This document shows, in pieces, positions 28,490-63,005 of a stretch of 64,000 nucleotides of DNA (positions within the stretch are counted from its first letter, which is position 1; every line of letters begins with the position of its first letter). The translations under genes were made by a program, and so were the position numbers. The notes beneath the pieces are model-generated. The model worked only from the letters and a program-made list of their open reading frames with translations, searched no databases and was not told where the DNA came from. This stretch comes from Auriscalpium vulgare (lineage: Eukaryota; Basidiomycota; Agaricomycetes; Russulales; Auriscalpiaceae), in assembly GCA_019915015.1 (NCBI GenBank), contig JAHBBC010000044.1, positions 1 to 64,000 of the forward strand, read 5' to 3'.

Positions 28490-28497
28490 AAGTGAAC

Positions 28498-29131
28498 CAC
28501 CTGGTAGTACCTATAAGCGGAGCTAGTAAGCTAGTAGAAGGTGGGGGGTGTCTCGAAGCTAAGTAGCCTCACTTAGCTTGTTTTCAGTGCCGCGCCGCGG
28601 TCCCCACTGGGGCGCTCCTAATCGGGAAACGTCGGCTGATGAGATCCACAATCTCCCACCCGCGTTCCCGCCCCGCATCAGCAAAATCAGAGAATTATTA
28701 TGATCATTATAACCGGTTATCACAAAGCTCTCCCAGGCATGATATCCAGCCTGTAGCTGCCTTATTTAGGTTATACGACAGGATATCCTCACTAATCTAC
28801 TAAGCTGGACCTCCCGCATGTTCGTGATAACTTTCAGGACATATCACCTACGTAGATTGCGAAATGCCCCATAATTATGACGGGGAGAGAAGCATCATAA
28901 TCGCTTATAATCGCTATAATTTTTTCTCACTTTTGCCGATGCGCGCGGCATCCCGGCACGGCCCCCATCCCGATCTCCGGACGCCCGCTGCCGCCGGCAA
29001 CGCCCGCTCGTCGTCCCTGACGTCGAGCTCGCTGTCCCCGACGACGACAACGAGTTCTCCCCCTCCCCCGTCCCCTACCATAGACATACGCATACCGTTG
29101 GAATCGTACTGACGGCGCGGACTCATTGGTG
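28498..29131 (+). repeat. Left terminal inverted repeat of element 1 (interrupted)
   Basis: Matches the reverse complement of 40125-40491 with few mismatches, from CACCTGGTAG to GACTCATTGGTG, but is split by the insertion at 28676-28941. Confidence 0.93.
28676..28941. mobile_element. 266-bp AT-rich MITE inside the left TIR
   Basis: Absent from the right TIR, which gives the empty site (GCCCCG-CGCGGCATCC). Its ends are imperfect inverted repeats: CATCAGCAAAATCAGAGAA on the left, and CATCGGCAAAAGTGAGAAA as the reverse complement of the right. Flanked by a 2-bp (CG) or 3-bp (CGC) duplication, which cannot be told apart here. The interior is AT-rich with no coding capacity, unlike the GC-rich TIR around it. 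Confidence 0.82.
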
Positions 29132-29384
29132 CTTACTACAACGTTCCTGGAGGTGCAGAACTAGGTACTCATGTAATTCATTAATTATATATAGACTTTC
29201 TAAAAGCCTCGCACTCTGTGAGGCTTGACTATGTGGCAATGCGTATACAGGTTCAATAAGGAGCTGGAGGTCCATGTAGGACGCTTGGAGCCACCAAGGC
29301 GAGCCTCCCCACGCTGCACGTGCCACGCGATCAACGCGTTTGCCGAGTCGATCGCGTCTAGTACGCGTCTCCTCACATTAGCCC

Positions 29385-32300
29385 ATGGCGTCCTACAAAC
29401 GGTTCAAGTCTACCTCAAATTGTGTCCGAGAGTTCAACCCAGGCCTCCTATCGCAAGGCCAGGTCCCCTCGGTTCTAGGAAAGCGGAGAAATATGTTAGA
29501 ACTCGGACAAGAGAGGGCTGCAGAGCAGGAGGCTAGGCAGAGCCAGGCACCTCGTGTGTACTACCTTTTTACCGCTAAACATGCTATTCACTGCGCTGCT
29601 GTGCAGGTGTTACCGCCTTTCTACGCCAAGTGATTGTAGAAGCAGGGCTTGAGGTTGGGGAGATCCCGCAGGACCTGGATGACTATCTCCAGTCCTTGCC
29701 CAGCGCGCCAGCCGACGAAGATACCTCGGAGCTGTGGGTTGATGAAGTTGATGACGATGCCGCTACGCACGGTCTCAGCAACGCAGAGATCGCCATGAAT
29801 CGTGCTCGATTGCATGCGATCATCGGGTGCGTTCAATGCTCACTGTCCGATACCAACAACTCACTCCATACAGTCTTTACGGGGGCAGGGTTCGCGGACG
29901 CGATCGTCGCACTCGCATGGAGAGACGCAGGGCAGCGGACCACGCCGGAGCTCCTGGATGCATACGTTCACTGGACGTATGCCGGCGCCGATGCACGCAA
30001 CGAGGCTCGCAACGAGTCCAGCTCAAGCTCGTTCACGGTCCAAATGATTGGACTATCAGGTGTGTCTCCTTCTAAGCTTGCAATGTGCGATTCTAACCAT
30101 CCAACAGAGTACTCGGAGGCTATGGTGATTGAGCAAGGCCCCCATGAGCCTAACATCGCTCTCGCACGACACGGCCTTCTCAGGGCTGCACCTTACCTTC
30201 CCTCCCTTGCCTTTTCATTCGACCTGCTCGAGTTCTACCGGCACCTTCGACGCCGGCAGCCTACTTTCGGAATTCAGGCATTTGCCAAAGTTATCTGCGC
30301 TTTTCACAACGTAAGTACCGGCCCATTGTGCGTTGTTCTCTAGCTGATCAAGTATCGCAGCTTCTGTACTACCCGAAGCTCCAAGAAAAGCTATCGCGCG
30401 CCTTTGACGTCTACTTGGACATCCACAGGCGACTCCAGCACGTTACAGATGAAGCCCTTGGTCGAAATGCGCCAAACTGGCGCGCTCTCTTCGGCTGCCC
30501 GTGCTGCGGATTCAAGGTGTGTTACGATGGCTTCTTGAGTCAATTACTGGGATGCTCAGACAGAGCTCTAGCAACCCAACGAGCCGCTTCTTACCCCGGA
30601 CCGCCTACACGTGATGGACGGCAACAGCTCTCAGAAGCGACTTTGCGGGGCAGGTCGCTCTGACATGCGGGAGTTCAACAGCAGCTATTTTTTGTCCCCT
30701 GCGCAGGTGGACCAGTTTGCGAACGAAGTCGCTGGCAAGCGGCGCACGGCTCCGGAACCCGGGCCGCCGGTCCCCAACTCCGATGCCGACTTGGAGTCGG
30801 ACGGCCTGCCGACAAGCAACCTGCCCCAGTCAAAATGCACGGATGGCTGGCAGGCCGCGAATGCGACTTCAATGGGGAAGTCGGTCACGGAAGTATTTGA
30901 CCAGACTGGGGTTTTCCTGACGACGTGCCGGCACGGCATCGTCGAGTTCGTCACAGAGATGCTGCGAAGCGGAGAGCTGTGAGTGCTATCCTTTCCTCCT
31001 CCGTACAACGTTAACACCAGGCCGTGCAGCGCGAAGTATGCGCTCGCATCATTAGATGCAATTATGAAGACCTATGGCAGCGATCAGGCCGTTGGATACG
31101 ATATCGGGTGCTCTATGCACTCGACCGTCCAGTCAACGAGCCTGGCCTCCGAAGCCAACGCACGACGGCTTCATCTCATCGTCAACGCATTCCACGGGTA
31201 CGCGCACAATAGACGATGTCAACTCCTTTTCCACATCCTTTATCAGCTTGGGATGGGGATTGAAGACCTGGAAACTTGCGAACAGATTTTCTCCAGCCTC
31301 AACGGTGTCGCGCGGACTGTTCGCCACGCGTCGTACTTTCACTGGCAGCAATTTCTCGACCTTCATCTCCGTTGGTGGGACGAAGACCGACATGCGGAGC
31401 TAAGTACGTGACCTCCTTTGCATGCGCCGGCATTTTCTCATTTAGCTTCAGGCAGGTTTCTCTACAACAACTACCGACAGGCACTCTCCATGATATCTGA
31501 GTACAAGCGTGAGCTGGCCGTATTCACACAAATCACCGGCTTCAGCGCCCCCGACTTCGAGTGTTGGATCGTAGAGGAGCGGGACTATCTTGAGAAACTC
31601 CGGGAGGAGCCCGAGGAGGATATTCAGAAGATCTCGTACGTGGAGGCCTTGATCAACTTGGAGGCTGCAGAGTCCGTCTTTTTATTTCTTTCTCACTCTA
31701 CCGCTGTGCTGACTCTTGGGCAGGACGTCGTACGGTGGCATCACCACGGTTGACTTTCTCACCTACACGCCTGCGAACTTTGCAGCCGGCTACAATCCGT
31801 CGGTTCTACGGGCCGCGTCAGTGAAGGCGAAGGAACTCGAGCGTCGGAGCGCTCACCGAAAGCTCATTCTCGCCCAGAACGTCGTCGACGACTTGGAACG
31901 CCGCCTGGCCATCGAGGATCGATGGACCCCCGAGTCGCCCGAGTTCAAAACGGTGCGCGACTACATCGACAAACGCAAATTCATTCGAGCAGTTGAGGAG
32001 CTCGAGGGGCTCGTCGTACAGAGGCTTTTTGAGCTGGCAAAGTGGAACATCTCGGGGACTGGTAAGTTTTTCACGTTGGATTTGGCACGAGGCTGAACTT
32101 CACTCCTTCAGGCTATAAACTTTGCAAGCATATTTCACATGCAATAACGCGCCGATCAGGCGCCGTACGATCTGCAGTCGACCGCTACAACGAGCTTGCC
32201 CCGCTCCAGCATCCGCCGCGCCCAACCCTTCTCTACTCTGAAGTTGCTAGCTATAGCTGGCTCGCTGACTTCGATCTCTTGAAGGAATCGCGTGCCGACG

Positions 32301-32731
32301 TCCTGGACAGGCCATGGTCGAAGCCAGCCAACCGAGAGGCGTGCATGAAACACTTCAAGGTCCTGCGAGCGAAAGAGGAGCTCGTTCGGCTCAACGTCGA
32401 GGCCGCTCGACTGCACGCATGGGTAGATTCCGAAGACAAAGATCTCGCGGATCGGGCGCTGAATATCAAAGCTACGCAACCTTTTCTGGCGGCGCATATT
32501 GATCGACTTCGGGCTTTTCGTGCCCAGGTCAACGACTCGCACCGTCGCCTGCTCGGCCGCACGTACGCTCTCCAAGGCTACACCGGCCCGGTGCCTGACA
32601 TCAGCAATGCGGGCCGCGACGACGATGAGCAGGATGAAACCGATGGCGAGGCGGACGTTGAGGAGGACGAGGATATCAATGAGGAGGTCCTGAATCTTGG
32701 AGATGTAGTACATAGACTCTCAATTTTGTAG
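29385..32731 (+). CDS. KDZ transposase 1 (CxC1-like)
   Basis: Multi-exon gene; transposase of the Kyakuja-Dileera-Zisupton class. After MASYKRFKSTSNCVREFNPG comes an acidic N-terminal part. HNLLYYPKLQEKLSRAFDVYLDI and NWRALFGCPCCGFK (a Cys pair) lead to the first catalytic Asp in LHVMDGNSSQKRL. The core continues TGVFLTTCRHGIVEFVTEMLRSGELAKYALA, then VGYDIGCSMHSTV (second Asp), NAFHGYAHNRRCQLLFHILYQLGMGIEDLETCEQIFSSLNGVARTVRH (Glu region). The C-terminal part includes TSYGGITTVDFLTYTPANF, GTGYKLCKHISHAITRRSGAVRSAVDRYNELAP and SYSWLADFDLLKESRADVL, ending in an acidic tail. Introns include about 30060-30107, 30313-30359, 30517-30569, 30979-31028, 31406-31451, 31675-31723 and 32062-32111. All are intact, with no internal stop, so it could be active. 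The GYDIGC and NAFHGYAHN motifs are KDZ signatures. Confidence 0.88.
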
Positions 32732-32868
32732 AGCTAGGTATGAATGTATACTTTGCAAAGTCACGGCATTCTCGTGCCGAGTGATCAACGAACTCTTCGC
32801 TTATCACTGCGACAACCTGCACCCGCGCGACAACCTCCACCCTCCTCCACAACGCCTCCGGCTTCCAG

Positions 32869-34435
32869 ATGCAGCTCGACCATGTCATCGACATCGACCT
32901 CGAGGACGTCTTGATTGAGAAGTCGATTAGCCCGGAGGACGATCTGTTGGAGCTGATCGCCTCCATCGATCTATCTGGTGAGAGCATCAACTGTGTTTGG
33001 GGCCTTTCGTGCTCACCAAAGTAGACTTGGAGCCAGTTCGTGCTGAAGAGCGACCTTCGAGCCATCCGCAGAAGAACGGTCATAACTACCGCGTCCGGGA
33101 GGCAGGGCAGGTGAAAGTCGTCGGCCCATGGTGCGTGGCTGTTGGCTCTCTCAGAGCATCGCAGGCTGACCGAAATCTAACTACAGGTATGATGCAGCCG
33201 CTCTGACGCAGGGTGTCCCCGGCACCGCTGTGAAAGCATTCAAGGCAGCAGCACCGAGCTTGGCCAACTTGCAGCGAAGCACCGCGGGCCGGGCAGCGAG
33301 CGCGACTGAGCGCGCCAAGACAAAGGACGACCGCGACGAGGAGCAGTTGGGCTACATTGTATGCCAGGGCTTTATCCCTGGCATCTACTCCGACCGGTGA
33401 GCAGAGTCGCTTCCTTCCCTTTCTTCGACTCATCATAGCTCTGCACAGGCAGGCAAAGGAGGTGCAAGTCATCGCGCTAGGGGCATCGTCATATCAGAAG
33501 GCACCGCAATGGGCATTAGCGGACAAGATGCGTGAAGCCTATCGCCAACGCCTTGTTGCTGCCCTAGGCTCGAGCAGCGCGGAGGAGGTACGTCGACGAG
33601 CGCTCCCACGAATGCACGAAGACCGCTTAATACCGTCCACAGAGGCACGGTCTACTTGAACGGCTGGACTATGAGCTGGTCCCATCGGAGAAGAAGTGCG
33701 TGGTGTTACGTGGCTTTGTGCCCGGGTTGTATACGCGGTATGGCTTCCCTCTGCGCTGCCCGTACCTTGCTGAAGCCGCCATCTATTGCAGGAAAGAGGC
33801 CCTTGAGCAAACGGCCTCCTTCAAATCCTCTGCATGGACCGAGTACACGACAAGCTTCGAGGCCGCAGATCACTTCCGGAAGGCCTTGAAGGACGGCAAG
33901 GTGGCCCCGCTTGGGGAGGCCTGCGCTGCCGATGTGCGCCCACCCCTCCACCCCCCCCGCGTTACTGACCTGACGCTGTACGCACAGTGCCGGCACCTCT
34001 TCCTTTCGGCCGCAAACATCCCCGGTGGGCCACAAGGGCCTCAAGCCGCCCTACCCCGCACTCAGCCACCCAAGGCCGAGCCCTCCAGCCGCGTCAACGA
34101 CGGACCCAAGCCCGGCCCCTCCAGCTGCACGGAAGGCGGCACAGCTGACTATCCGCTCGGCGATGCAGATCCGCGCCGCATAGGGCCGTGGTACGTCGTC
34201 TTCGTGGGTCGACATCCCGGAATATACGGCAGCTGGTAAGCCCGCCAGGCCCTTGTTTGACTCGGACGAATGCTTAACAGAATTAAGGCCGGAGGCGGAA
34301 GAGCAAGTGATTCGTGTGAGCTGTGCCGTGCACGTCAGCTACGCCAAGTTGTCCACGGCTCGCTCTGCATTCAGAGCCGCGCGAGCAGAAGGGAGGGTCC
34401 GCCGCCACGACCTGCCGTCGCAGCGACGCCGTTAG
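32869..34435 (+). CDS. Protein with four viroplasmin/RNase H1-N-type domains
   Basis: Multi-exon gene. The N-terminus is short and acidic (MQLDHVIDIDLEDVLIEKS). Then four degenerate copies of the RNase H1 N-terminal (viroplasmin) fold can be read. (1) YRVREAGQVKVVGPWYDAAALTQGVPGTAVKAFKA. (2) GYIVCQGFIPGIYSDRQAKEVQVIALGASSYQKAPQWALA. (3) CVVLRGFVPGLYTRYG... with SFKSSAWTEYTTSFEAADHF. (4) WYVVFVGRHPGIYGSWPEAEEQVIRVSCAVHVSYAKLSTARSAF. The pattern (Y/V)-x-V-x-x-G-x-x-PG(I/L)Y followed by an aromatic-x-x-F/Y-x-(S/T) segment is the domain's signature. In RNase H1 this module binds RNA-DNA hybrids and dsRNA. No RNase H catalytic domain is present. Introns include 32978-33012 or nearby, 33123-33186, 33397-33449, 33587-33642. 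It is transcribed in the same direction as all other element 1 genes. Function in transposition is unknown. Confidence 0.72.
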
Positions 34436-34861
34436 ATAGCTCGTTATCTCCTGTACCCTATACTACCATGATGAAATATGACGATGTTGTAATGCTCTTC
34501 ACATGGGAAATCGTCTGAGAGAAGCTGCTTGGTTTTGGTATGGGTCTGAGATTTTACATCGAAGAGGGTTTCTGCGGCCGCGTTGCGGTGAGGCGTGTAC
34601 AGTGCTTTTGTTGCCTCGCGTTCACAATCTCGGACTTGTGTCTTCTGCCCCAAACATGCAAACAATGTGAGTATATTTTCGAGCTCGGGCTATCTCTGGC
34701 CTGCGAATACACTAAGTACTATACTCTTACGCTTCGTTGCCGTCTCAAAATTGGCTGAATGCCATTCTCCAGACTTGAAACACGTGACACATCTCCTTGT
34801 TGCTGCGGAGCAGGAGACGCGGCCTCACTCCTCTCCTCGAGCCTGCACTGTTCCATTTGCC
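34436..34861. other. Spacer inside element 1
   Basis: Between the viroplasmin and HRR genes. No exon recognised; likely 3' flank plus promoter. Confidence 0.45.
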
Positions 34862-35541
34862 ATGAGCGACCGTGCCGAAAACCGAAGGACCACTCAAAAG
34901 GATTTCTACAACAGGTATGTGCTTCATGTTTGCGTCCATCTATCACTGATTTGATATCTACAGGAATAAGGAGAAGCTACTGGAGCAGAAAAGGAAGCGG
35001 TACTTCCTTCGCAAAGGCCGTCAAAAGCTGTCGCAGTGCGACAGGGCGGCGAGGCATGGGGCTCGTTATGCTGTGTTGGCAGGACTACAGAGGTGCGCCG
35101 TTGGCTTCTCCCACTGAGTATCGTACGCTACTCACACGCGCGCCGGCACCGCACAGCTCGTACTCCAGCCCAATCGCATGGGTGCGTCGCTCTTCCCCCA
35201 CTCCTGATCCCAAAGTCAGCCTGGAGACCGCTGGCGAGGAGCGGGAGGCGCTCTATCGGTGTCTGCAACTCATGCAGGCCCTTCGGGAGCAGGGCACCAA
35301 CACCTAGCTCAAGCACCAGGCTGAGGACATGGAGGAGCATCTCGAGACAGCGCTTTGGCATGCAGCTGCCTTCCGTGACGCTGAGGGCCATCGGCGAGAT
35401 GAGGACTTCAAGGAACTCTTGCACATTCATCGCCGCCGGGTCGCGGGCTTCCACCAGCTCGCAGATCTCTTTCGACAAGGAGAAGGCACATTTCTCGCGG
35501 CTCGACAAGACCGCGTTGTCATTTTCGATGGCTTTCGGTGA
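34862..35541 (+). CDS. Small basic HRR-motif protein 1 (KDZ accessory, in-frame stop)
   Basis: Exon 1 (34862 to about 34915) gives MSDRAENRRTTQKDFYNR; exon 2 from about 34964 gives NKEKLLEQKRKRYFLRKGRQKLSQCDRAARHGARYAVLAGLQ, a strongly basic stretch. The C-terminal part reads MEEHLETALWHAAAFRDAEGHRRDEDFKELLHIHRRRVAGFHQLADLFRQGEGTFLAARQDRVVIFDGFR (given in full frame order). The motif H-x-RR-x-(V/I)AG-(F/I/L)HQ is shared with two other genes in this window, at 51112 and 59971. An in-frame TAG at 35305-35307 separates the middle from the HRR part, and no canonical intron that keeps the frame removes it, so this copy may be inactive. Family not recognised. Confidence 0.55.
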
Positions 35542-36186
35542 GTCGCCTCCCATCTCCACCTGTTGTTCGGCTTGAACCTGTTGCTCACCAAAGGCTGCAG
35601 GGTAAATTGCTCGCATTTCCGGCAGATATATGGATGGTAGTCGGTGGTATATATGTGTATAGCTGCTGGATATGCGCCATGGGATATGGATGTACGTAGA
35701 TTATCTGCGTGAGAATGCAAAGCGTCGTGCCCAAGCCCTTTGGTGCATGCCTAAGCCTCCGAGCCAACGCATCGGTTCCCCGGCACGCTGCGGCCACAGC
35801 CACAGACGCGTCTATTGTTGATTACGCGTGACCGCCGCCGGCCACAACTCACGCGCGTTTAAGACAGACACCGCCGCTGGACCTCTACCTCTCCACCTCT
35901 TCCTCTTCCTCTTCCTCTACCAACCTCTGCCCCGCGCGTCACGCGTCAAGGCTAAGCTAGCGAAGCGAGACCTCCTTGCTTTAGGTCAACCTCTGGTCTA
36001 CTAGGTGAGTGTGCGCTCAGCTGCCGTACCTTTTACCGTACCTTCTGCCCCGCCGCCACGGACGTTTCTCGCCCAGGAACTGGCGAGCGGCGGGGGCTTT
36101 TTTTATACGCGTCTTTTCTCTCTTTCTTTATCATCTTCGGTTGCTGTCATGCCCTGCTAACTCCGTTTGCGTGCAAGGCTCTGGTC
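35542..36186. promoter_or_regulatory. Spacer and promoter of the TET/JBP gene
   Basis: No coding exon recognised. Contains a long pyrimidine tract (about 35880-35930, repeated CTTCCTCTTCCTC), typical of strong fungal promoters, and TTTTTATACGCG at about 36098, roughly 90 bases before the start codon. Confidence 0.5.
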
Positions 36187-37964
36187 ATGAAGGTAAGTCT
36201 ACCTAAGCTGGCATGCGTGGCTTTGCGCTGACTTCTAACCGCTCTAGACGCGTTCTGGCATCACCTTTGATGCCTTCGGGGCAGCAACAGCTCTGCGGAC
36301 CGACCTGCTCTACGGCGCGCTGCTGAAGAGGGCCGTCGAAATGGAGGACCAGTTGGCCGCCGCCGCCAACTTTGCAGCCGCGCATCGTGAGGAAGCCGAG
36401 GCGCCCGCCTGGTCTCCTACCTCTCTCGCCTCTCTCGACAGCTCGCCGCTCACCAGCCTAGCCACCACGGCCTCCTCAACCCCGCGTTGCGATTCCAGCC
36501 AACCCCTCGACCTCACCGCCCTAGACGAGAAGCTCATCGCTGCCGCGGCCTCCACCCACGTCCCACCGCCGGCTTCCAAGAAAAAGAGGGCGAGGAAAGC
36601 CAAGACGGAGGAGCAAAAGGCGGCTTGGAAGGTCAAGTCGAAAGCAGCGCGCAAGGCCCGCAGGCAGCGACAGGGCGAGGAGAATTCGCAGTGCAGAGCC
36701 AAGAGCAGGGGCACGGTGCAGGGATCCGTGACGTCTAACGTTGCGTTTCGGCGATTTGTCGAGCCCTCGCGCATCAAGCCCCAGCTCATCTTCGATGCAG
36801 GCGACATCCCCGCCACGAAGCAGGGCGGATGGAGCGTGCGTTCCCTGCACACTTGGGCAAAGGTTGCCTGGGCCTCCGACGAGCTGGATGAGAAAGGCTT
36901 TCAAGCCTTCGAATGGGACGGAAGGTGCGTGGCGGTCCCTCACTGGTGAGCGACGGCTAACAGGCCAACAGGACCCCCTACGTGATCCTGGACCACGAGG
37001 AGAGGATCATCGCGGTTCTGGTGGGTCGACCGGTCGAGTCCGATCAGCGCAAGCAAGAGGATCGCTGGGAGGCCGCCGCGGAGCGCGCTGCCAATTTATT
37101 CGAGGCAGTCCGGGCCTCCGACCCCGAGGTGTTCCCTCCACCGGTCGAGCACCGTCGCGGCGTGTACTCCTGCGTCAACGTGGGGATATCTCACGGCGGC
37201 GGCTCAAAGGTGCGTTCTTCTCACCGTCGTGGCAGCGGCCACTGACTCGATAACCAGGCGCCACACAACGCTAGCCTCGGCAGCCCCAGCAGGGCAGCGC
37301 TGGTGCAGCTTCTGCTTGATGATTTGGACGTCCAGCGGCTGGCCGGCTTCGCTAGCGGTGAGTTTTACTTCATTGTCTTCGTTGCTTAACGCTGATCAGC
37401 CCCTCAGGCGCGCTTGCCGCCTATTACCCCAAGGCCTACCAAGACATGTGCGAGGCTCTCGCCTGCCTCTACGAACGCCAGCCCGAGCTCTCGTCAAACT
37501 TCCGCAACAGCGCGTACCCGATGGCGACGTTCAACCTTGGGCCCGAAACCGTAACGTTCGAACACAACGATTGCAAAAACTATCCTAGCTTGCCCTGCGC
37601 CATCACAGCCCTCGGATGGTTCAACCCAGACAAGGGCGGCCAGCTCTACCTCCGCGACCTTCGCCTCAAAATTCGTTTCCCCTCGGGCTCAACCATCTTG
37701 CTTCCCTCCGCCGGCCTGCGCCACGGCAACTCCGCCATCCAAGATGGCGAGCGGCGGTACTCCATGACGCAGTATTGTCCGGGGGAGCTGATGCGATGGG
37801 TTCGGCACGGGTTCCGGCCTGCGGGCAGCCTTTTGAAAGCCGAGCGGGAACGCGTCGACTCCGGCCGGTGGGCGGCGCAGCTGGGCCGCCTGTCAAAACT
37901 GTCCGAACTTGCAGGCGACCGTCTCAAGCTGAAGGAGTGGGAGATGCGGGCGGCGAAAGCGTAG
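36187..37964 (+). CDS. TET/JBP-family 2-oxoglutarate/Fe(II) dioxygenase
   Basis: Predicted oxidase of 5-methylcytosine or a related DNA/RNA base. The first coding exon is 6 nt (ATGAAG, 36187-36192); exon 2 starts at 36248. The N-terminal half has a disordered, lysine/arginine-rich nuclear-type region (KKKRARKAKTEEQKAAWKVKSK). The core includes SVRSLHTWAKVAWASDELDEKGFQAF, TPYVILDHEERIIAVLVGRP and YSCVNVGISHGGGS. The oxygenase double-stranded beta-helix follows: NSAYPMATFNLGPETVTFEHNDCKN (HxD iron ligands H-N-D), LPCAITALGWFNPDKGGQLYLRDLRLKIRFPSGSTILLPSAGLRHGNSAI (distal His), and GERRYSMTQY (2-oxoglutarate Arg). All key residues are present and the frame is open, so activity is plausible. Association of TET/JBP genes with KDZ transposons is known in basidiomycetes. 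Confidence 0.88.
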
Positions 37965-38248
37965 TGATAGCAGAGACATGTTTAAAGGTTAGACCTGAAT
38001 CATACGATTGTTTTATTCCCCTCGGCGCACTGACCCCGTCCATTGCCCCGGCGCCGGCCCGCCATACTTATTAAGGTGAGCTCGATCGTGTCGGTCACGT
38101 TGCTCGATCGCAACGCGTTGAATCTAGATGATTGTTTGGTTTATTCTGCCAAATAACGGGTAATTTACTGAAGACCCCAGGGCCCTGAGGATGAGAGCTG
38201 CGCCTTCCCCTCCCTTGTACCCGCCTGCACTTACGACCTCCCTTCCCC

Positions 38249-39991: not shown

Positions 39992-40124
39992 ATGACATAC
40001 CATGTTTATACGTTTGTCATAGTTAGGGTAGACTCAGTTTCTTTTCAATTAAAGGATCTATATTGCATCTACTAGTAAGGGCTAGATGCTATCTACCATG
40101 TGAGGAATATCAACAGGGGAACAA

Positions 40125-40491
40125 CACCAATGAGTCCGCGTCGTCAGTACGATTCCAACGGTATGCGTATGTCTATGGTAGGGGACGGGGGAGGGGGAGA
40201 ACTCGTCGTCGTCGTCGGGGACAGCGAGCTCGACGTCAGGGACGACGAGCGGGCGTTGCCGGCGGCAGCGGGCGTCCGGAGATCGGGATGGGGGGCCGTG
40301 CCGGGATGCCGCGCGGGGCGGGAACGCGGGTGGGAGATTGTGGATCTCATCAGCCGACGTTTCCCGATTAGGAGCGCCCCAGTGGGGACCGCGGTGCGGC
40401 ACTGAAAACAAGCTAAGTGAGGCTACTTAGCTTCGAGACACCCCCCACCTTCTACTAGCTTACTAGCTCCGCTTATAGGTACTACCAGGTG
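40125..40491 (-). repeat. Right terminal inverted repeat of element 1
   Basis: Uninterrupted 367-bp TIR; reverse complement begins CACCTGGTAG and ends GACTCATTGGTG, matching the left end. Followed by the target duplication AAGTGAAC at 40492-40499. Confidence 0.95.
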
Positions 40492-40499
40492 AAGTGAAC

Positions 40500-44790: not shown

Positions 44791-44879
44791 GTGCGTGCTG
44801 AGCCGTGGGGCATAGTTTATTCACTATCTCACAGCAGCTGTAACAGACCCATGGTGTCAAAGGGAGACCTGATAGTGCG

Positions 44880-45240: not shown

Positions 45241-45433
45241 ATCCTCTTAGATCACACGATAAATATTATTTTCTGTATTGAACCATAATGTAGCAAGATA
45301 TCAACAGCACAATCAATGGGACAGCACGATCAACACGAAAGCATGAACAAAAGGACAGCACAAGCAAGGGACACGGAAACTAGATACAGGGCCATATAGG
45401 AGCCATACCGAGGCCGCCAGTTATTTCCTCGCC

Positions 45434-51839: not shown

Positions 51840-52124
51840 CTCGACGCTGCATGGTATTTGATGGATGCCGCTTGCACCACTTTGCAAATATTGTCTCATA
51901 TCTTTTGTCCGTTGCTGGAGAGTCCATATATGCATGCCACCGTCTTCCAAGTACTGTAGTCTGCTTGTTGCGTGCCGCGAATTTTATTACAGTGTCTGCT
52001 TGTTGCGTGCCGCGAATTTGTTACTGGGTAGGCAACCATCACGTGATGGAATGGTTACTCAGACGCCGAGTGACGAGTCGCTCGGTCTGTCGCAGAAGGG
52101 TCCCCACAGAGACCCTTCAATGGT
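51840..52124. other. Spacer before the transposase gene
   Basis: Short intergenic region; a directly repeated GTCTGCTTGTTGCGTGCCGC occurs at about 51958 and 51993. No exon seen. Confidence 0.45.
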
Positions 52125-55100
52125 ATGTCCAAGTCCTCGAAGCCTACCCGCAAGCGCAAAACCGATGGAGGCGTTCATTTCGCTCCCATGCAGATACCGA
52201 AGGCAACCAAGCGAGCGTCCCAGCAAACAGCTGTCACACGGCATACAGATATCATCCTCAGACCCGACGCATCGTCCAGCCGCACGGTCACCCATCATTC
52301 TCATACCCTCGCACCCTCTGAAGAACCACATGTTGACGCCGCAACAGCTGATAACGGGGCCGACGGCACATCTTCGAACCCAGAAGATGTCGACCTCGAC
52401 GAAATTTTCCACCACGAGGATGTCTATATCGAAGACATGCTGAGGGCGCACGGTCGGAGGAGGAGCGGACGCTGTGGCAGAAGTCGCAAGAAGAAAAGGG
52501 TGTGTGCCAGAGCTAATATGATATACCATTATTTTCTGATCATCGGGCAGATTGAGTTGCTTAACGAGTGGATGCAGAAGCGCGACAGGTTTGCGGATGA
52601 ATCGTTGCGTCACGGCGGAAGAGGTGATTGGCAGCACCAAACCTTCTGCGCGAGCTGCACGGAGTCATCGCAAGGTGCACCTGCCGTCGTCAGGTGCCTC
52701 GATTGCCTCGGCTCGCCGTTGGTATGCGAGTCCTGCATCTGTAGTGCGCACAGGCTCACTCCCTTCCATCGCATCCAGGTAAAGGATGTAGTTCCCCAAT
52801 GTTTGTGCGGTCAACTAATCATTGTTTGTTTCTAGAGGTGGAATGGACAGTACTTCGAGCGCTGTTCGCTCTCCGAGCTCGGGCTTTGCATCCAACTTGG
52901 CCACGACAATCTCTCATGCCCTAACCCACGCCCAACGACTAGTACAATGACAATCATCGACACCAGCGGCGTGCACAGCCTTTGTGTGCGATTCTGCGAC
53001 TGTGGACGGGCTCAAACCGCGCCAACCTATATTCAAGTCCTGCGCGTGCGTTGGTGGCCAGCAACCCTTCAACGTCCGCGTACCGCCGTCACATTCCGAA
53101 CCTGCGAGCTGTTCCACGTGCTCAACGTTCAAGGCAAGGTCAACGCATACGACTTTTGGCATGGACTTGCGAGGGTAACGGACGGAAGCGGGCTTACTCA
53201 CGTAAAGGTGCGCACGTATTTTACAACTGATTATCTGACGCTGACGCAGGACACCCAGGACCATTACAAGGACTTTATCCGAATCATGAGGTGTTTTCGA
53301 AACGTACGAATGGCGAAACGCGGCGGCCGTGGTCACGACCCACAGGGCATAGCAGCAACAGGCATTGGAGAGCTCGTCGTGGAGTGCCCGGCATGTCCGC
53401 ATCCCGGGCGCAACATGCCGAATGACTGGAAAGATGCGCCGGATAGTGAGCAGTACATCCTTCCCCCGATTGAGTGCTTTAATTCTGATTATCCCGCAAA
53501 GGTGGAAGCACGCCACGGTGGTCGCCGTTGACGCAAACTTCAAGCTTAAACTGAAAGACCGGGGCTTTGAAGACGTGGAGTTGGCTCCGGGATGGTCTTA
53601 CTTTGTGGAGAACACCGCGTATGCGGAGCACGTCGCGAAATACATCGACCAAGAGGAGGTACGTCATTCATTCCTTTTGCTATTCAAAATGAAGCTGACC
53701 TTGTTCAGATGAAGCATTGCGGCTCGTCGTTTGCCGCTGTAGACCACGCCAATATGCCATCTCACAAGAGGTTCTGCGTCAACGGTGTTGGTGCCGCCAT
53801 CTGTGCGCGGCACTGCTTCTATCGCAAGAGCGGTGTAGGGGACCTGCAGAAAGGAGAGCGGTAAGTGGTTTTCACTCGCTAGTCTACTCAATCTGACCGT
53901 GCTTGCAGGTATTGTAATATGGACTATGTCTTGCTATCCAGCCTGGCACGCTCAGCGCCCGAGTACAAGCGGATTGTCATATCTTATGACATCGCCTGTC
54001 AGTTCTCGGTAAACTTCGCTCGCCGTATGATGGAGTACCCCGAGGGCATTCGTATCAACCTCAACGGCGTCGTCGTGATCTTCCTCGTCCCCAAGTTCCA
54101 TCTTCTAGCCCACGGACTCAAGTGCCAGTCTGACTTCAACTTCAACTTCACCGAGGGATCCGCGCGAACGTGCGGGGAAGGTATTGAGTCTGGGTGGGCC
54201 GAAACGAACGGAGTTGCCCTTAGCACTCGGGAGATGTCGACAGGCGCGCGGCGTGAGGTGCTCGACGATTTGTTTGGCTCGATCAATTGGCGGAAGACTG
54301 TCTCACTCGGTAAGTAGCACAGTTGTATGCATGGCCCACTCCGGATCTCACCATCATATTAGGGAGACAACTCGCGCGCGCACTCCGCGAGGCTGTCACA
54401 ATGCTCGACAAACAGACGAAGGTTTTCGAGTCCTCAAATCAGAACATACCGGAGCACATACGCCAACAATGGGTCGCAAAGGTGGAGGCGTGGGACGCTG
54501 ACAGCACGAAGCCGAATCCGTACGAAGACAACACCGTAGGCATGTTACACTGTAGTGATGCTTACTGCGCAAGCTCACCTATCTGCACTATAGTGACGTC
54601 GCTCTTCGACATTCGACTAGAGTTGGCGCAACAGGAGGCCGCCGAGGTTGGGCGAGGCAATGTCTCGCTGCACCAAATGTCGGCTAGCGTGTTTCTGAGC
54701 ATCGGGCTTGAGCTGGAGGACGCACAGTACGTGGATACGTACGAGACATATTGCGGGACCGGCGCTGACGCGTTCGATTAGGCGCGCACTCCGTGTAAAG
54801 GCAAAGCACGACGATGGCAAGACCCCAGCCGGAAAAGCTGCGCTGCAGGTCAAACGGAATGCGCTGCAGCATCACATCAAGAGCTGGCGGGCAGTACAGC
54901 AACTGTACATGCCTGCGGTCGCTCCCCTCATGGCGTTGGCAGCATCTTCTGCAGCGACGTCTTCCGCAGCGACAGCGTCTTCCCTGTCGGCAAACGCGGA
55001 GACAGCACTGGCCGCCGACACAGTCACCTCAGAGCCTGCCCCGCCACACGATTCTACCATCTCCGCGCCTACCGCCGCCCCGCAAGACCACTCAATAGCA

Positions 55101-56242
55101 TCTGGGGACACACCACAAGCGTCGCGAGCGGTGCGCACCCGCCGAGGTCAAGCGGCACCGTCAGCATCATCATCCGGCAGCGGAGGCAGGGCGGAAAATG
55201 AGGCGCTCTGGCTACCCTCCTCGGTCCCGCGCAGGCTATGGTCGGAAGGGCTTGCGAACGGCCTCATCCAGAAGAATATTCGACTTCGCATCGCGCAGGC
55301 GGAGGATGCACTGCACAACCTCCGTCGGCAGCTTCGCGTTCGAGCGGGTATGATACACTACAAGAAAGTTTTTGTCGACGGCCCTGGTCAAGTTGCCAAC
55401 ACACGTGCCCGTGAGAGCATCGCCCGCTTCAGAGACAGGATCAACAAGTACGCTGCACAATACCGTTCAGCGTACGCGGCGCTGCTCGCATTGGACCCCG
55501 ATGGCACATGGAGGCATCACCTGCTGGAGCTCAAGGCTGCCGACGTCGTTGGGCCGCGCGATCAGGACGAGGATGCTGACGGGAAGCGACTACCCGGAGA
55601 AGGTCGCCGCGAATTGCCTTGGATCTGGAGGACCATCTCGCACTTGCCTAAGGACATTCCCGGTGCCGCTGCGGATATGTCGGAGGAGGAGGTGTACGAA
55701 AGTGAGTGATGCTAGCAGCTGCTGCGAGTCAACGTTGGCTGACTGAGCGTGCAGGCTTACATTTCGACTGGCTTCGTGCGAGGGCTAGGGTCCGCCGTTG
55801 GGACGAGGAGGTACAACTCCTACTGCTGGAGATGCCTCGCTCTGTCGAATTCCTGCTGTGGAAGGCCGCGTGGTGGGCACTGCGAGCGGACCTCCGGCCC
55901 GATGTTGATGAAGACATCCGCGACGGCCTCCATGCATATGCGGCTCGACAGGTGGCCACGTATCGAGGGCTCGCAGTCTCCTTCCATGCGCCTTGGTCCA
56001 AAGTCCTGTCTATTCACCATCTTTCCACAGTCTGGCCGTTGTCGACCGCGTTGTCGCACTCTGTATCGCCAGACACGGTCCCCAAGCGCGCGGCTGTTTG
56101 GTCTGATCATCCAGCCCCTAGACTTTCCGCCGTTGTCATCCCTGCCAATGTGGACCATTCGGATTCGGAGTCTGAAGCGTCAGAATCGGAGAATGAGGAG
56201 CACGCGCTGTCTGACGGGGACTATGTCGATGTTTTCGGGTAG
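52125..56242 (+). CDS. KDZ transposase 2 with CxC2 cysteine cluster
   Basis: Full-length multi-exon gene starting MSKSSKPTRKRKTDGG. The CxC2 cluster reads FCASCTESSQGAPAVVRCLDCLGSPLVCESCICSAHRLTPFHRIQRWNGQYFERCSLSELGLCIQLGH. Next is LRTCELFHVLNVQGKVNAYDFW-type linker (seen as FRTCELFHVLNVQGKVNAYDFWHGL). The catalytic core has KHATVVAVDANFKLKLKDRG (first Asp), SFAAVDHANMPSHKRFCVNGVGAAICARHCFY, RIVISYDIACQFSVNFARRM (second Asp), VPKFHLLAHGLKCQ and GIESGWAETNGVALSTREM (Glu). The C-terminal helical part includes AGMIHYKKVFVDGPGQVANTRARESIARFRDRI and WDEEVQLLLLEMPRSVEFLLWKAAWW, with an acidic tail ending at 56240-56242. The whole gene can be read without stops, so it may be functional. A segment at about 54533-54597 is an intron in the homologue at 62345-62410 but is open here and carries two subterminal-type palindromes. 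Confidence 0.92.
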
Positions 56243-56564
56243 TATGTGTGATGTAATGACTTTGCGCGTGTTTGAGTGTTGTTATACCATCAATTGTAGC
56301 ATTTGATGTTCGTGAGCTTTTATTGATGACAGAGGTACAAAGTGTAATGGTTGGAACAAATTAATAGAGTCTCGAAGGTGAAGTCCGTTGCTCTGCTACA
56401 AGTCAATGATCACGTGATCCTTGACTTGGTGTCCAACTATTGTGACCTCGAAATGCACTGTAGTAGATATTGCCTTTGCACAATCTCGCTTTCTCCTTCG
56501 TGATTGCACTATAGTGCTACCGTCAGCTTGGGAGCCCCCAAATATATATAATATTGGCTGGTCT
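56243..56564. repeat. Right subterminal region of element 2 (palindromes)
   Basis: 3' flank of the transposase gene, with palindromes GCACTGTAGTAG (about 56456) and GCACTATAGTGC (about 56505) of the same type as the left end. Confidence 0.65.
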
Positions 56565-56978
56565 GAATATATATAATATATTGGCTGGTATATTCAATAT
56601 TCACTATAGTGACCTCAATATGCACTGTAGTCAATGCTGTTCCGGAGCTATTCTGCTAGCTGGGGAACCCGGGAATATATATAATATATTGGCTGGTATA
56701 TTCAATATTCACTATGGTAACCTCAATATGCACTGTAGTCAATGCTGTTCCGGAGCTATTCTGCTAGCTGGGGAACCCGGGAATATATATAATATATTGG
56801 CTGGTATATTCAATATTCACTATGGTAACCTCAATATGCACTGTAGTCAATGCTGTTCCGGAGCTATTCTGCTAGCTGGGGAACCCGGGAATATATATAA
56901 TATATTGGCTGGTATATTCAATATTCACTATGGTGACCTCAATATGCACTGTAGTCAATGCTGTTCCGGGGCTATCTG
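56565..56978. repeat. Four tandem 108-bp repeats
   Basis: Units start at 56565, 56673, 56781 and 56889 (GAATATATATAATATATTGG), nearly identical. Each unit contains a CACTATAGTG-like and a GCACTGTAGTC-like half-palindrome, so eight sites are amplified next to the right end of element 2. Because 108 is a multiple of three, the array reads as an open frame of 36-residue repeats; this is not evidence for a protein. Confidence 0.9.
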
Positions 56979-57156
56979 CTCTCATATCCTCTGGGGCACA
57001 CTATAGTATGATAGAATATACTATAGTACTAGCAAATGTACTGTAGTACCCACATATGCACTATAGTACTGGCAAATACACTGGGAGCCAGTTGCACTAT
57101 CATGTCTCCCTTTAACACCACACTCATGTTACTACTGTAGGCTGTTAGTCCACTAA

Positions 57157-59402
57157 ACTACTCCCCAGTGTTGTACAGGGTTACTATCGGCCCTCTTCTC
57201 CGTACCATCCCCGGCGCAACATGGGGCGGCTACCCAACATACGAGGCTGCCCACTCCTCACTGGTGAATGCCAGCATCGCGCAGCAGCTTGTGGCTGCTG
57301 CGATGATGCAGCCGACAGTTGTTGCTCCTGCGGCGCCGCCGCCGCCGCCGGCCGGCGCCGAGCCGGCTGCCGCTGCTGCGTTCGCGATGCATGCGTTAGT
57401 GGATGCCCTCAAGGAGGCTGCTGCCAGCAACAGTCTTCCGCCGTCTCCGACACTGTCTAGCGTCTCCTCTTCTTCCGGTCCTACTGCTCTGAGTGACCAC
57501 ATCAGCTTCGTTGATGTTGGTACTACTTCAGTTGCGTCCCGGACCGGGCGGGGCTCGTATGTGCAGCCCGCCCGGTCATGGCGCGGATCCCGCCCGTACC
57601 GCGCGGACTCAGCGCGCCCAGCGATGCTGGAGCAGCTGGAGCCCGTGCGCAGCGAGGGAGACCGCCAGGACCGGGCGGATGCCGCCCGGTCTGTGCGCCG
57701 CTCGGGAGCCCCGCAACCATTGCCGCCCGCCACCGTCGGTGCGCCTGGTCTGTGCGGGCCCGCCTCGTCCACGCGCGTGCCCCTTGCCGCCCTCACCGCG
57801 CGCCCCTCGCCGCCTGCACTGAGCGCCCCTTGTCGCCTGCACCGCGCGCCCCTGCTTGTTGCCTTCCCTGCGCGCCTTCGTCGCCTCTGTTCGCTTGTCA
57901 CGGTCCTCGTCGCACGCCCTTCGTTGCCCGCACGCCTATGCGTGGCCCTCGCTGCGCGCAATTGTCGACCTCATGAGTCATTGCGCACATCCCCGCCCTC
58001 GCTGCACGCCGGGGCCGTCGCCTGGACCTCGCAGCGCGCCGCCCCTCGTTGCCGCCTCGTCGTACGCACCTGGCGGTCAGTTTCAAGATGATGGTGAGAG
58101 TGCGGGGGTGTTGGGACGGTGTGGTGGTTGGGGGCAGGTGGTAGTGGGGAGAAAGTGGCCTTGCGCCGCGTTGAACCTGCCACGCGGCCCCCCGGTCACG
58201 TGGTTTTGTTGACAGCACATCGTGGGAATTGGGCTTCACTTGCCAATGCAGGCGCTCCTGCCTTGTTTCCGCGCCCGCACGCCCGCACGCCAGCACGCCC
58301 GGCCACCCAGCCCCCCACTTTCTGTTGAGACGTGCCTGTGCAGCCTTGTATGGCACCACACCAGGTGCCTCCTGGCTGCGCAGGGAGGACAGCGTGCAGG
58401 GGCGCGTGACAAGAACGACGCGCAGCCAGGCCAACACGCAGCAAGGACGACACGCAGCGAGGGCAGCGCACATGGACGTGCAGCCAGGACGCTGCGCATG
58501 CAGCAGGCGACGCGACGCAGGCGAGGAGCAGGGGCGCACGACGACGGCGACGAGGGGCGTGCGGCAAGGGCGACAACATTCGCAGCGCGAGGCGCGCAGC
58601 GAGGGCGACTCGGACGAGCAGGGGCGCGCGGTGCGGGCGACGAGCGGGGGCAGGCGGTGCGGGCGACGAGGGTGCGCGGTGTGGGCGACGAGCAGGGCGC
58701 GCAGTGCAGGCGGCGAGGGGCGCGCGGTGAGGGCGGCAAGGGGCACGCGCGTGGACGAGGCGGGCCCGCACAGACCAGGCGCACCGACGGCGGCGGGCGG
58801 CAATGGTTGCGTGGCTCCCGAGCGGCGCACAGACCGGGCGGCATCCGCCCGGTCCTGGCGGTCTCCCTCGCTGCGCACGGGCTCCAGCTGCTCCAGCATC
58901 GCTGGGCGCGCTGAGTCCGCGCGGTACGGGCGGGATCCCGCCAGGACCGGTCGGGCTGCACATACCAGCCCCGACTGGTCTGGCACGCTACTGAAGTCCC
59001 TCGATGTTGAAGTCGACGGTGTGTGCTCATTTGATAATGTTACGTCATGATACTTATCTATCTTATCTATCTTATCTTCAGACCCAATCACTGCGGCCCG
59101 AGGCTCTCGCCCTCGTGGAGGCTGGCCATACCTCGCTATTGCGCGAGGCACTCGAACGGGAGTGTTCCCGAACTCGTGCGTCATCTTTTCCATGAGCAGT
59201 ACAGCATGTGCTAACGTGTTGTTGATTCAGAGCTCGTGCGCATGACAAGTACGCGTCAGGTGTGACGAGGGCAGCATCTCGTGGGTTCCGCACGGAAGAT
59301 GAATGCCGCGCCTGGCTCGACTGGTACAACGAAAGGTACCCTCTTGTGACTTTCGCCCTCATCGATCCTTTTGAGGAGCAGGAGACTGCTGCAGCGGAGT
59401 GA
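57157..59402 (+). pseudogene. Viroplasmin gene 3, downstream part (KDZ element 3)
   Basis: Continues the exon at 44656-44790 across element 2. The first domain is VLYRVTIGPLLRTIPGATWGGYPTYEAAHSSL, a shortened viroplasmin-like segment. A Pro/Ala/Ser-rich middle follows, interrupted by a 1.47-kb inverted-repeat element (57525-58997). The last exons give WPYLAIARGTRTGVFPNS and, after an intron at about 59166-59230, SGVTRAASRGFRTEDECRAWLDWYNERYP, the second viroplasmin domain, then stop at 59400-59402. Domain layout (N-terminal domain, disordered middle, C-terminal domain) is the same as viroplasmin gene 2. Two large insertions make it unlikely to be expressed as an intact protein. Confidence 0.65.
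57525..58997. mobile_element. Long inverted-repeat (foldback-type) element inside viroplasmin gene 3
   Basis: Outer ends are ACTTCAGTTGCGTCCCGGAC on the left and ACTTCAGTAGCGTGCCAGAC as reverse complement of the right. About 290 bp of each arm pair well (57525-57826 with 58697-58997), for example GTATGTGCAGCCCG and CCAGCGATGCTGGAGCAGCT. Inside, both arms continue as diverged GC-rich repeats built on GCGCGCCCCTCGTCGCC. No transposase is seen and no clear target duplication. Long mirror-image open frames on both strands here are composition artefacts. Confidence 0.78.
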
Positions 59403-59970: not shown

Positions 59971-60617
59971 ATGGTCAGGACGACCACCGATTATCTAAGG
60001 TGCGTCAACCCCCGGCACTATTAGGTCTGCAAGGTCTGCATTTAACCGTGATTATAGGCACCGCGACAACCGCCTTCGTTACCAGAAGACTTACAACAGT
60101 GTCAAACGGGTTGGGCGACGTAAAGTGGGCAAGTCGGAACGGGAGCGCGAGGAAGACAAGCGGCGAGCCATAATCAGCGGCTTACAACGGTGTGTCCGTT
60201 GCTCTCTATGTTCAGTACATGGAATGATAATGTTAGTTCTTGCTCAGGCCATATACAAATGATATTGCATGCAAGTCCGCAGGTGTCGACTCGAAGCGAA
60301 CTCCTTTCATGCACGCCCGTGAGCACGAAGTCTTTGAACACTGAAGCCTCCTGCGACATTCCCTCATGGAGCAACACCCCGGCGACTGGGCTTCACGATA
60401 CGTATTTTGAGTGCGCGCTGGCATCAATCGTATCCTTGGCACCGTGGACAACGTGCTGGCTACTTTAGAGTCGTCTCCTCCCGCAAACATCGCCAGCAGG
60501 ATCCATCACTACCGACGTCTTGTAGCTGGCCTGCATCAGGAGGTAGAATTCGCTCTGCAGGGGAAAGAAGTTCGCGACTGGGCGCTGGCGGACCACGCGC
60601 ACATATTCACCGGGTGA
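59971..60617 (+). CDS. Small basic HRR-motif protein 3 (KDZ accessory)
   Basis: Exon 1 (59971-59999) gives MVRTTTDYL; the next exon starts at about 60059 and reads HRDNRLRYQKTYNSVKRVGRRKVGKSEREREEDKRRAIISGLQ, very basic, with the same GRRKVGK found in the HRR protein of element 2. A further exon from about 60411 reads INRILGTVDNVLATLESSPPANIASRIHHYRRLVAGLHQEVEFALQGKEVRDWALADHAHIFTG. The core HxYRRLVAGLHQE aligns with HGHRRIIAGIHQE and HIHRRRVAGFHQL of the other two copies. The linking sequence at 60180-60410 has no clear reading frame, so this copy may be shortened or decayed. Function unknown. Confidence 0.55.
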
Positions 60618-60889
60618 CGGTGAGCCCTCGTTTCATATGCTATCCTGGCAACTCGACTCAATCCAAGCCGTTCGTTCAGAGTGCACAGCATTGCTTTCAA
60701 ACACTTATATGGTTTCTAGGTAGATACAGAGTGCATGTAATTTATCTCGTATTAAATGCCTCAGAGCCCGTTGTTTGCTTTCCCTGGTCGCACCGCCTCG
60801 GCCCTTGCGCTCGCAGGACATACTGCACCCGCGCATTTAATCCAGCAGACACACATTATCATTGCTACTAGTAAACAGAACAAAGGAAA
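60618..60889. other. Convergent spacer in element 3
   Basis: Between the 3' ends of HRR gene 3 (plus) and the transposase remnant (minus). Nothing recognised. Confidence 0.4.
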
Positions 60890-63005
60890 CTACAGATCAT
60901 CACCATCTTCTTCCTCCTCCTCCGACTCCTCCTCCTCCTCCGACGACGACTCCGAGCGGCCATCAGCATCGAGACTGCTGGAGGGAGGGACGATTACCAC
61001 GGAATTGGCCGGCGGCACTGCCAAGTCCGAGGCCGAAACTGGCCATAAGTCAGGGAACCCATGTGACAGCAACGCGGGTCGCCATATGTTGACGTAAGAC
61101 TCTGCCAGCTCATCATGATGGGCTGCCTGCCGAAGCGCGAACGCATTGGGGCCGGACAGGATGTCCGGAGTGACATCTGTCCGAGCAGAAACCCTACGGC
61201 GCCACCATTCCGCGCGACTGCGCATGAAGCGCACAGCACGTGGCATTTCCTCCTTGATGAGCGAGATTTCCTCAACCCAGCGATAGTTCACCCAGTCGAC
61301 GCGGATGCCTGTAAGCTGCCATCAATGTGTGTGGGCACGGATTCTGCATGCACGGCGACTCACACTTGTTTCCCTCGTCTTCTGTTGCCTCCTGACCAGG
61401 AATATCCCACGCATCCGCACGCAGGGTCTGCCAAATCCACGACATTTCGTAGTGACCCTTTCCCAACTCGTTTCGCTCCATTCGCAATGGCCTGATGTGC
61501 TCGTCCTTCAATTGCAGCAGCTGCACCGTCCAGGAACCGCCAGGATCGAGGATCGAGAGTGCGTTGTACGCATTTTGGTAACGGTCGGCGTGCCGCATGG
61601 TCTTGTCTTGAAGGCGCGCCAATTGTGCACGTGCACGTGTGTTGGCGTTCTGGCCTGGGCCATTGACATGTACGCGCTTGTAGTGCACCATGCCGTGCTT
61701 GATACGGATGGCACGGCGTAGCTAGATGCGTTACCAAAGACCGTAAGCTCGTGTCACAAAACCAGCGCAGAGAAGACGCACCTGATGCAGAGAATCCTGC
61801 GCTTGGCCCACACGGAGCCGCCGCTCCTTCTCCACGAGTCCCGGGACACATCCCGACTCTGGGAGCTCGGGCGGCACCTGAGATGGCAGAAACAGAGTCT
61901 CCAACTCTGGTGCACCGACCTTGATGATGGGATCGTCGCCGGACAGATTGGGGGCCGATGACGGGAGAAGCTGCGCGATGCATGGGATGTAGAGGAGCTG
62001 GAATTGGCGCCAGGCAGTAATGCGGCGGCGAAGCGTGTTCTGTTTCTCCCTGAAAGTGATGGCTTCGTTAGTAAGATTTTTCTTACGCTTGCGCCTGCCA
62101 TCAGCGCCCTCATCGTTTTCGTCCGCGGCCGGTTGCAGCAGCTTCTTCTGGAGTGCGCGAAGAACACGTCTACAAACTGATAGTCATCCACAGTGCGACA
62201 CTTGCTAACTCGTCACTTACTGTTGCTCTTCAATGTCGAACCCAATATGAATGAAGACGCTGGCGGTCGTCTCATGTGGGGATAGATGTCCGCGAGAGGC
62301 TTCCAGCGCTTCTTCATTGATCAATTCTAGCCGAACGTCCGCCAGGGTCGTCACTTCGGCGAAACACACGTAATTAGCACTTGATCCGTAGCCTATCACA
62401 ATGACTCACCGGTGTCGGGGTCTTTGTACGGATTCTGCGCGGTCTTGTCCTTGTCGTACACTCGCATCATCTCTGTCCATTCCTCGCGCAAGGCCAAAGA
62501 GATGTTCTGAGACATCTCCTTGAACTTGGGACGGTGCTTGGCAAGTGCATCGACGGCCGTCTTCAGCAACTTCTTCAGTGCGGTACCTTAAACGTCACAA
62601 TAAGCACACTGATCCGTTGATTCCCCGAGATAACGTACCGATCCTGATGGTCTTGCGCCAATTGAAAGCTCCGAGGATGTCGTCGAGCGACTCCTGGCGC
62701 TGCGGACCACCCATTTCCCGTGTACTCAAGGCTACAGGGTTGAGGTCAGCCCAGCCTGCCTCAACGGACTCACCTTGAGTATGCCCAACACCGAACATTT
62801 CGTTGTACGACAACTTTTCTTGGCAGTCTTGACCGTGGGCGATGAGGTGGAATTTCGGCACAGCCCAGTTGATGTCGAGCAAAGCGAGATCCAGGCCGCG
62901 TGCCTCGGAATAGCGGGCCATCCTAGTGTAGAAATTCGTGAGAAGGATTGTTGACACCGGGTAGGCTGAGCTTGAGCGCGCCAAGTAACATATAGTCCAT
63001 GCAGG
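60890..63005 (-). pseudogene. KDZ transposase 3, 5'-truncated remnant (CxC2 type)
   Basis: Homologous to the C-terminal half of KDZ transposase 2. From 63005 leftwards: MDYMLLGALKLSLPG (matching MDYVLLSSLARSAPE), then a frame break. It continues WAVPKFHLIAHGQDCQEKLSYNEMFG, ESVEAGWADLNPVALSTREMGGPQRQESLDDILGAFNWRKTIRIG, LADVRLELINEEALEASRGHLSPHETTASVFIHIGFDIEEQQ, and MVHYKRVHVNGPGQNANTRARAQLARLQDKTM. The end is WVEEISLIKEEMPRAVRFMRSRAEWWRRRV and an acidic Glu/Ser tail, stop at 60890-60892. The whole N-terminus, CxC2 cluster and the first two catalytic Asp are missing; the sequence breaks off into AT-rich repeats near 63005. It runs opposite to the viroplasmin and HRR genes, unlike in elements 1 and 2. 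Confidence 0.85.

Follow-up and report, generated by a model that had tools for sequence, protein, structure and literature searches.

A viroplasmin-domain gene and a small HRR gene form a probable accessory pair of KDZ transposons in Auriscalpium vulgare

Fungal KDZ (Kyakuja-Dileera-Zisupton) elements encode a transposase and, in some cases, a TET/JBP gene (PMC12730594, PMC12810828). The Cryptococcus elements KDZ1-3 are 9-11 kb in length and have terminal inverted repeats (TIRs) and target-site duplications (TSDs) of 4-8 bp (PMC12730594, PMC12810828). Besides TET/JBP genes, the available portions of these two papers contain little on KDZ cargo, and F-box and Zisupton domains are treated in the available portion of PMC12062965. 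The window analysed here (64,000 nucleotides of Auriscalpium vulgare contig JAHBBC010000044.1) contains three KDZ loci, elements 1 to 3. Each carries a gene A, encoding an array of RNase H1-N/viroplasmin domains (PF01693), and a small gene B, named HRR after its motif. As an earlier note on this DNA had stated, all three elements have A upstream of B with both genes on one strand, and each B gene has the motif HxRRx(I/V)AGxHQ (H.RR..AG.HQ). A and B are very probably an accessory module of KDZ transposons in this genome.

Element 1 (28498..40491, + strand) is a complete KDZ transposon. It is bounded by an 8-bp TSD (AAGTGAAC, at 28490-28497 and 40492-40499) and by inverted repeats that are identical at 363 of 366 aligned bases, and the A1-B1 pair is enclosed by both. 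A1 (32869..34435, + strand) has seven exons, an open spliced frame and three confident RNase H1-N domains (at 33397, 33738 and 34236). B1 (34862..35538, + strand) is broken by an in-frame TAG at 35305-35307; its C-terminal exon scores 78.8 bits against the B profile. The KDZ transposase core (30599..31381, + strand) matches PF18758 at 30599-30982 and 31031-31381. A CxC1-like label had been given to this element, but its CxC1 match is below the Pfam cut-off (E-value: 0.0025, 18.4 vs 26.9 bits). The left inverted repeat carries a 268-bp insert (28674-28941) with short inverted ends, resembling a miniature inverted-repeat transposable element.

Element 2 (approximately 44806..57167, + strand) has imperfect inverted repeats, and no TSD was found at its ends. 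A2 (48640..50333, + strand; exons 48640-48649, 48704-48818, 48868-49510, 49563-50167 and 50225-50333) encodes two RNase H1-N domains in an open spliced frame of 493 amino acids and is most similar to the A. vulgare protein P0001 (97% identity). B2 (51112..51839, + strand) is an intact HRR gene that scores 125.8 bits against the B profile. Its exons are 51112-51137, 51197-51334 and 51391 to approximately 51749, with a last exon at approximately 51800-51839 inferred from its best match, the A. vulgare protein P0005 (100% identity over 54% of the query). The transposase parts (52869..54287, + strand) comprise a CxC2 match at 52869-53189 and a KDZ match at 53703-54287. The window does not hold three working copies: B1 and B3 carry in-frame stops and A3 is truncated, which leaves the A2-B2 pair alone open throughout. 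A second copy of element 2 (L008, contig C47, approximately 75980-81538; loci, contigs and proteins are designated L, C and P) has a B gene 99% identical to B2. This copy, read in part, holds both A and B, and P0001 is closer to it than to the copy in the window.

The RNase H1-N similarity proposed for A is borne out by profile search. A1 and A2 match PF01693 well above the Pfam cut-off of 21 bits (A1 E-value: 3.7e-16, 59.5 bits; A2 E-value: 1.8e-20, 73.4 bits), and proteins P0001 and P0003 also exceed it. In the PDB, one domain of L001, which is closely related to A2, matches the RNase H1 of human and yeast (3bsu, E-value: 7e-4; 1qhk, E-value: 8e-3). Two to four domains per A protein had been claimed. 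This agrees with A1 (three) and A2 (two); A3 retains a half domain and one full domain. In L024, A domains at 4270, 6142 and 8014 have an exact spacing of 1872 bp, a tandem triplication of part of A. Protein searches for A returned only A. vulgare proteins (four, from 8000 scored candidates), as did those for B (one for B2 and seven for the B profile, from 2568 candidates); other fungal genomes were not scanned.

B belongs to no family recognized by these searches. Pfam gave no credible match for the window B genes and none for P0009, NCBIfam gave none for four B proteins, and PF20515 matched nothing anywhere, controls included, and is hence uninformative. A model of the C-terminal exon, built from 22 sequences, is a long helical hairpin with a short helix (mean predicted local distance difference test score, pLDDT: 88.3; predicted template modelling score, pTM: 0.80). 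A fold search with it returned nothing at an E-value of 0.001 or better, the best matches being generic helical bundles (0.40 in the PDB and 0.54 in a viral set). A full-length model was poor (mean pLDDT 65) and was set aside. Longer B relatives add a basic N-terminal stretch, and several end in a shared RVN...YGW form.

The distribution of the pair was surveyed in one genome, that of A. vulgare or close kin (51.6 Mb, 96 contigs). Because the profile scans were six-frame, blind to introns and limited to the best-scoring candidates, the locus counts are lower bounds. There are at least 168 KDZ matches (PF18758; the best 150 of 204 candidates scored), at least 84 CxC2 matches and at least 12 CxC6 matches. 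The B profile gave 65 matches that merge into at least 57 B loci. These are strongly enriched near KDZ transposases, as the earlier note had predicted: 40, 48, 52 and 56 of the 57 lie within 2, 5, 10 and 20 kb, respectively, of a KDZ-superfamily hit, zones that occupy 1.3, 2.7, 5.2 and 10.2% of the genome. The zones include CxC6 and CxC1 matches, of which 11 of 12 and 7 of 41, respectively, were taken in. If only KDZ and CxC2 hits are counted, 46 of the 57 are within 5 kb, in a zone of 2.5% (binomial p 3e-63, with kinship among copies ignored). B loci on C13, C35 and C8 that at first appeared orphan-like are 1 to 9 kb from CxC6-type transposases. When 23 B exons (20 from fetched loci and three from the window; L008 left out) are grouped at 50% identity, they form 12 clusters; in 11 of these at least one member is no more than 5 kb from a KDZ or CxC2 hit, and L020 is the exception. 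That A and B are host genes which happen to have transposons as neighbours is extremely improbable. Two RNase H1-N loci remote from the listed KDZ hits (L002 and L003) do look host-like, but A1 and B1 are inside element 1, between its inverted repeats and TSD, and all but one of the 57 B loci are within 20 kb of a KDZ-superfamily hit.

Detection of A required a splice-aware search. A genome search with the whole PF01693 domain found eight places, all of them outside the window, since the domain is interrupted by an intron, and this search was dropped. The splice-aware search detects only domains with an intron at that one place, and its second profile was built from the hits of the first round, among them L002 and L003. 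When each sequence was block-shuffled once, no score exceeded 12.1 bits, and 35 bits was used as the cut-off for presence of A in fetched loci. Outside the window, 22 of 54 B loci were read (20 as 9.9-kb stretches and two in shortened form), and L008 covers one further locus in part. An A gene precedes B in the same orientation in 17 of the 20 fetched loci and one of the two later ones, or 18 of 22. The nearest A domain is 888-1488 bp from B, or 2744 bp in L018 (17 loci). The proposal of a two-gene module associated with different transposase subtypes thus grows from three loci to 57 B loci. Of the later loci, L038 has A (52.0 bits) and no match reaches 12 bits in L037. In L015 a weak A-like match lies downstream of B (19.1 bits; 14.2 in the second search), and the match in L019 (10.1 bits) is inside noise. 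In L019 and L026, both scored without A, a dispersed repeat precedes B.

Three layouts of the pair are seen, one each for CxC2, CxC6 and element-1-type transposases. In the CxC2 layout, A, B and the transposase are on one strand, often with a divergent gene (gene C, discussed below) before A; L015 is an exception, its transposase being on the other strand and upstream of B. In the element-1 layout the order is transposase, A, B and then, approximately 1.9 kb further, a dioxygenase-like gene. In the CxC6 layout, found at three of 11 CxC6 places checked, B is convergent with the transposase, and A is present in two of these three loci (L016 and L038). The pair stays together while its position relative to the transposase changes.

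Both genes look maintained by natural selection, judging from substitution patterns. Of 15 pairs of B sequences, 14 have a ratio of nonsynonymous to synonymous substitutions (dN/dS, Nei-Gojobori) of 0.11-0.31, and in the other dS is saturated. For A the ratio is 0.06-0.30 in pairs of at least 70% identity with finite dS and 0.06-0.65 over all listed pairs; in both sets the pairs share sequences and are not independent. These values bear on whether A and B are captured cargo without function for the element, spread by hitchhiking. The broken B1, B3 and A3 and the many KDZ elements that do without the pair would fit such cargo. The low dN/dS of both genes across divergent copies argues against it, as does the persistence of the pair in divergent families whose transposases differ, and this reading is considered very unlikely.

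The earlier note had suggested that the pair acts on R-loops, on the element's transcripts or against RNA silencing, through binding of RNA-DNA hybrids or double-stranded RNA by the RNase H1-N domains of A. The fold itself stands: in addition to the PF01693 and PDB matches, all 40 distinct transposon domains (collapsed from 45) have both fold glycines, and the positions of Tyr29 and Trp43 are partly kept (Y in 25 of 40 and W in 18 of 40). The binding face is another matter. At six positions, which we take to be those that contact nucleic acid in RNase H1, transposon domains have a mean of 1.4 basic residues (range 0-3, 40 domains), against six in human RNase H1 and five each in the two host-type copies; the Lys60 position is K in three of 40. 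The host-type copies (L002, C10:634232; L003, C1:1803173) lie far from listed KDZ hits and keep the basic residues. The canonical face for RNA:DNA hybrids therefore appears to be mostly lost in A, which suggests that A has been repurposed. Action through hybrid or double-stranded RNA binding is weakened accordingly and is an improbable account of the pair.

Dioxygenase genes provide a second comparison. The dioxygenase-like gene of element 1 (37428-37826, + strand) is sub-threshold for Pfam 2OG-Fe(II) models (best: 2OG-FeII_Oxy_3, weak E-value of 0.11), and no dioxygenase is among its PDB matches. Its family has at least 102 matches in the genome, one of which (C2:2970183) has a sub-threshold match to PF12851 (Tet_JBP). 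Six PF12851 hits are within 10 kb of KDZ, all at CxC2 loci without B, and 0 of 17 are within 10 kb of B. At six loci on C8, C9, C13 and C14, members of a CxC2 family lacking B have a PF12851 gene approximately 4 kb from the transposase. The B locus L037 has a sub-threshold Tet_JBP match approximately 1.9 kb from B. Among CxC2 loci, a dioxygenase lies within 8 kb at two of 43 with B and 18 of 39 without B (Fisher p 1.5e-5), a contrast and a p value that are inflated since the copies are related.

This contrast is compatible with a counter-silencing role, in which A and B would shield the element from methylation, small RNA or heterochromatin, in parallel to transposon-borne dioxygenases. A and B also diverge faster than CxC2 (mean distances of 0.60 and 0.67 vs 0.41), and, according to the available part of PMC12730594, the TET/JBP genes that fungal transposons carry are believed to oppose silencing. 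However, a general exclusion of the pair and dioxygenases was rejected, since eight B loci carry both, seven of them with the dioxygenase gene approximately 1.9 kb downstream of B. Counter-silencing is a rather doubtful explanation, although well ahead of nucleic acid binding by the canonical face.

The proposed model for the pair is as follows. A would be a multivalent adaptor, its RNase H1-N folds numbering from one to three or more. B, helical and with a basic stretch at its N terminus, would be its partner, and the two may form an optional complex that aids the transposase in delivery, end recognition or assembly. Taken as a whole, the reading of A and B as a KDZ accessory pair of this kind has a little less than an even chance of being correct; help to the element's own transposase, as the mechanism, is plausible at a slightly lower level. 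More tentatively still, an RNase H1-N array that has been neofunctionalised may make up, with a novel helical protein family, a portable module for mobility or counter-silencing that is shared by at least three KDZ subtypes (CxC2, CxC6 and element-1 type) and replaces the dioxygenase in most pair-carrying CxC2 elements.

Several observations weigh against the adaptor model. No B was found within 8 kb of 39 of 82 CxC2 loci, and four CxC2 families without B, read directly as controls, contain neither B nor A at 35 bits or more (weak A matches: 21.0 bits in L036, 16.0 bits in L033 and L034). The pair is therefore not required for KDZ mobility in general, and the earlier description of a module of KDZ transposons at large is too broad. 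At two places A is near KDZ with no B found within 8 kb (L005, C1:2150521; L004, C18:906485). The correlated divergence of CxC2 and B (Mantel r 0.60, n=12, permutation p 5e-5), CxC2 and A (0.69, n=10, p 1.5e-4) and A and B (0.55, n=10, p 3e-4) counts in the model's favour, but it is also expected for any passenger gene. Lastly, binding of A or B to the palindromic motif ACTRYAGT was considered. The two ends of element 2 (44800-45400 and 56300-57140; 0.6 and 0.84 kb) hold nine and 11 copies, against three in 10.9 kb of its interior and none in window positions 1-28400, and the motif is also clustered in L013, L015, L017, L022, L024, L026 and L034. As L034 is a CxC2 locus without B, the motif is no evidence for binding by A or B, and this candidate was rejected. 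KDZ copies with and without the pair coexist in this genome, which allows mobility, methylation and expression to be compared between them in a single organism.

Element 3, which has no defined bounds, contains a damaged pair. The A3 remnant (57179..59402, + strand) lacks its 5' part and consists of a half domain that starts at 57179 and an intron-split full domain at approximately 59108-59330. The latter scores 55 bits in the splice-aware search (at 59176); the fragment alone is below the Pfam cut-off for PF01693 (18.3 vs 21 bits, E-value: 0.0029). B3 (59971..60617, + strand) has in-frame stops, and its C-terminal piece scores 61.8 bits against the B profile. The transposase part (62661..62888, - strand; PF18758) is on the strand opposite to A3-B3, and the CxC2 match falls beyond the window (C44:69851-70171). 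L032 is the nearest fetched relative of both the element 3 transposase (72.7%) and A3-B3. In L032 the transposase has the same orientation as A and B; element 3 is therefore rearranged or composite.

An exon at 44656 had been proposed as the start of A3. It sits in the dispersed repeat (43871-44800), has no viroplasmin match in the splice-aware domain search and differs from the 5' end of A in L032; it is no longer assigned to A3. Similar repeats are found in six fetched loci (L004, L010, L018, L019, L026 and L030). The copies are up to 94-98% identical, are inserted near several B loci and seemingly disrupt A in L019 and L026. Gene C, the divergent neighbour of A2 (47566..48447, - strand), has no Pfam match. 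Its relatives precede A in the opposite orientation in 11 fetched CxC2-type loci (L001, L013, L014, L017, L022, L023, L025, L027, L028, L030 and L032); the stretches read for L001 and L014 contain no transposase.

As the earlier note had supposed, no description of the pair was found in the open full-text literature, a body that does not include the founding KDZ paper. The abstract of that paper (by Iyer, in PNAS in 2014) reportedly mentions additional proteins, including one with a divergent HMG domain, and the paper may mention A or B. Other DNA transposons have accessory proteins, such as CACTA TnpA, the Harbinger Myb-like protein and VANC, that aid transposition or counter silencing. A and B may be analogous to these in being extra genes beside a transposase. 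With the RNase H1 N-terminal domain and caulimovirus viroplasmin (PF01693), A shares the Pfam match, the invariant glycines and the match to solved domains. Unlike RNase H1, A1 and A2 have no Pfam match to an RNase H catalytic domain, their domains are repeated and the basic face is mostly lost. Some PF01693 proteins annotated as host genes may be explained by KDZ-borne A. A viroplasmin-domain gene, capE, was captured by a Pleurotus ostreatus helitron and has no copies outside helitrons, according to the available part of PMC4289320. It resembles A in being a PF01693 gene on a fungal DNA transposon and differs in its setting, as KDZ is absent from that text. With known fungal KDZ elements, the elements described here share the transposase core and cysteine clusters, and element 1 also has TIRs and an 8-bp TSD. 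Unlike the KDZ elements described in PMC12730594 and PMC12810828, they carry the A-B pair in addition; the words viroplasmin and ribonuclease are absent from the available part of PMC12730594. That A and B have kept their order in elements that are strongly diverged suggests that KDZ transposons have an accessory strategy besides TET/JBP.

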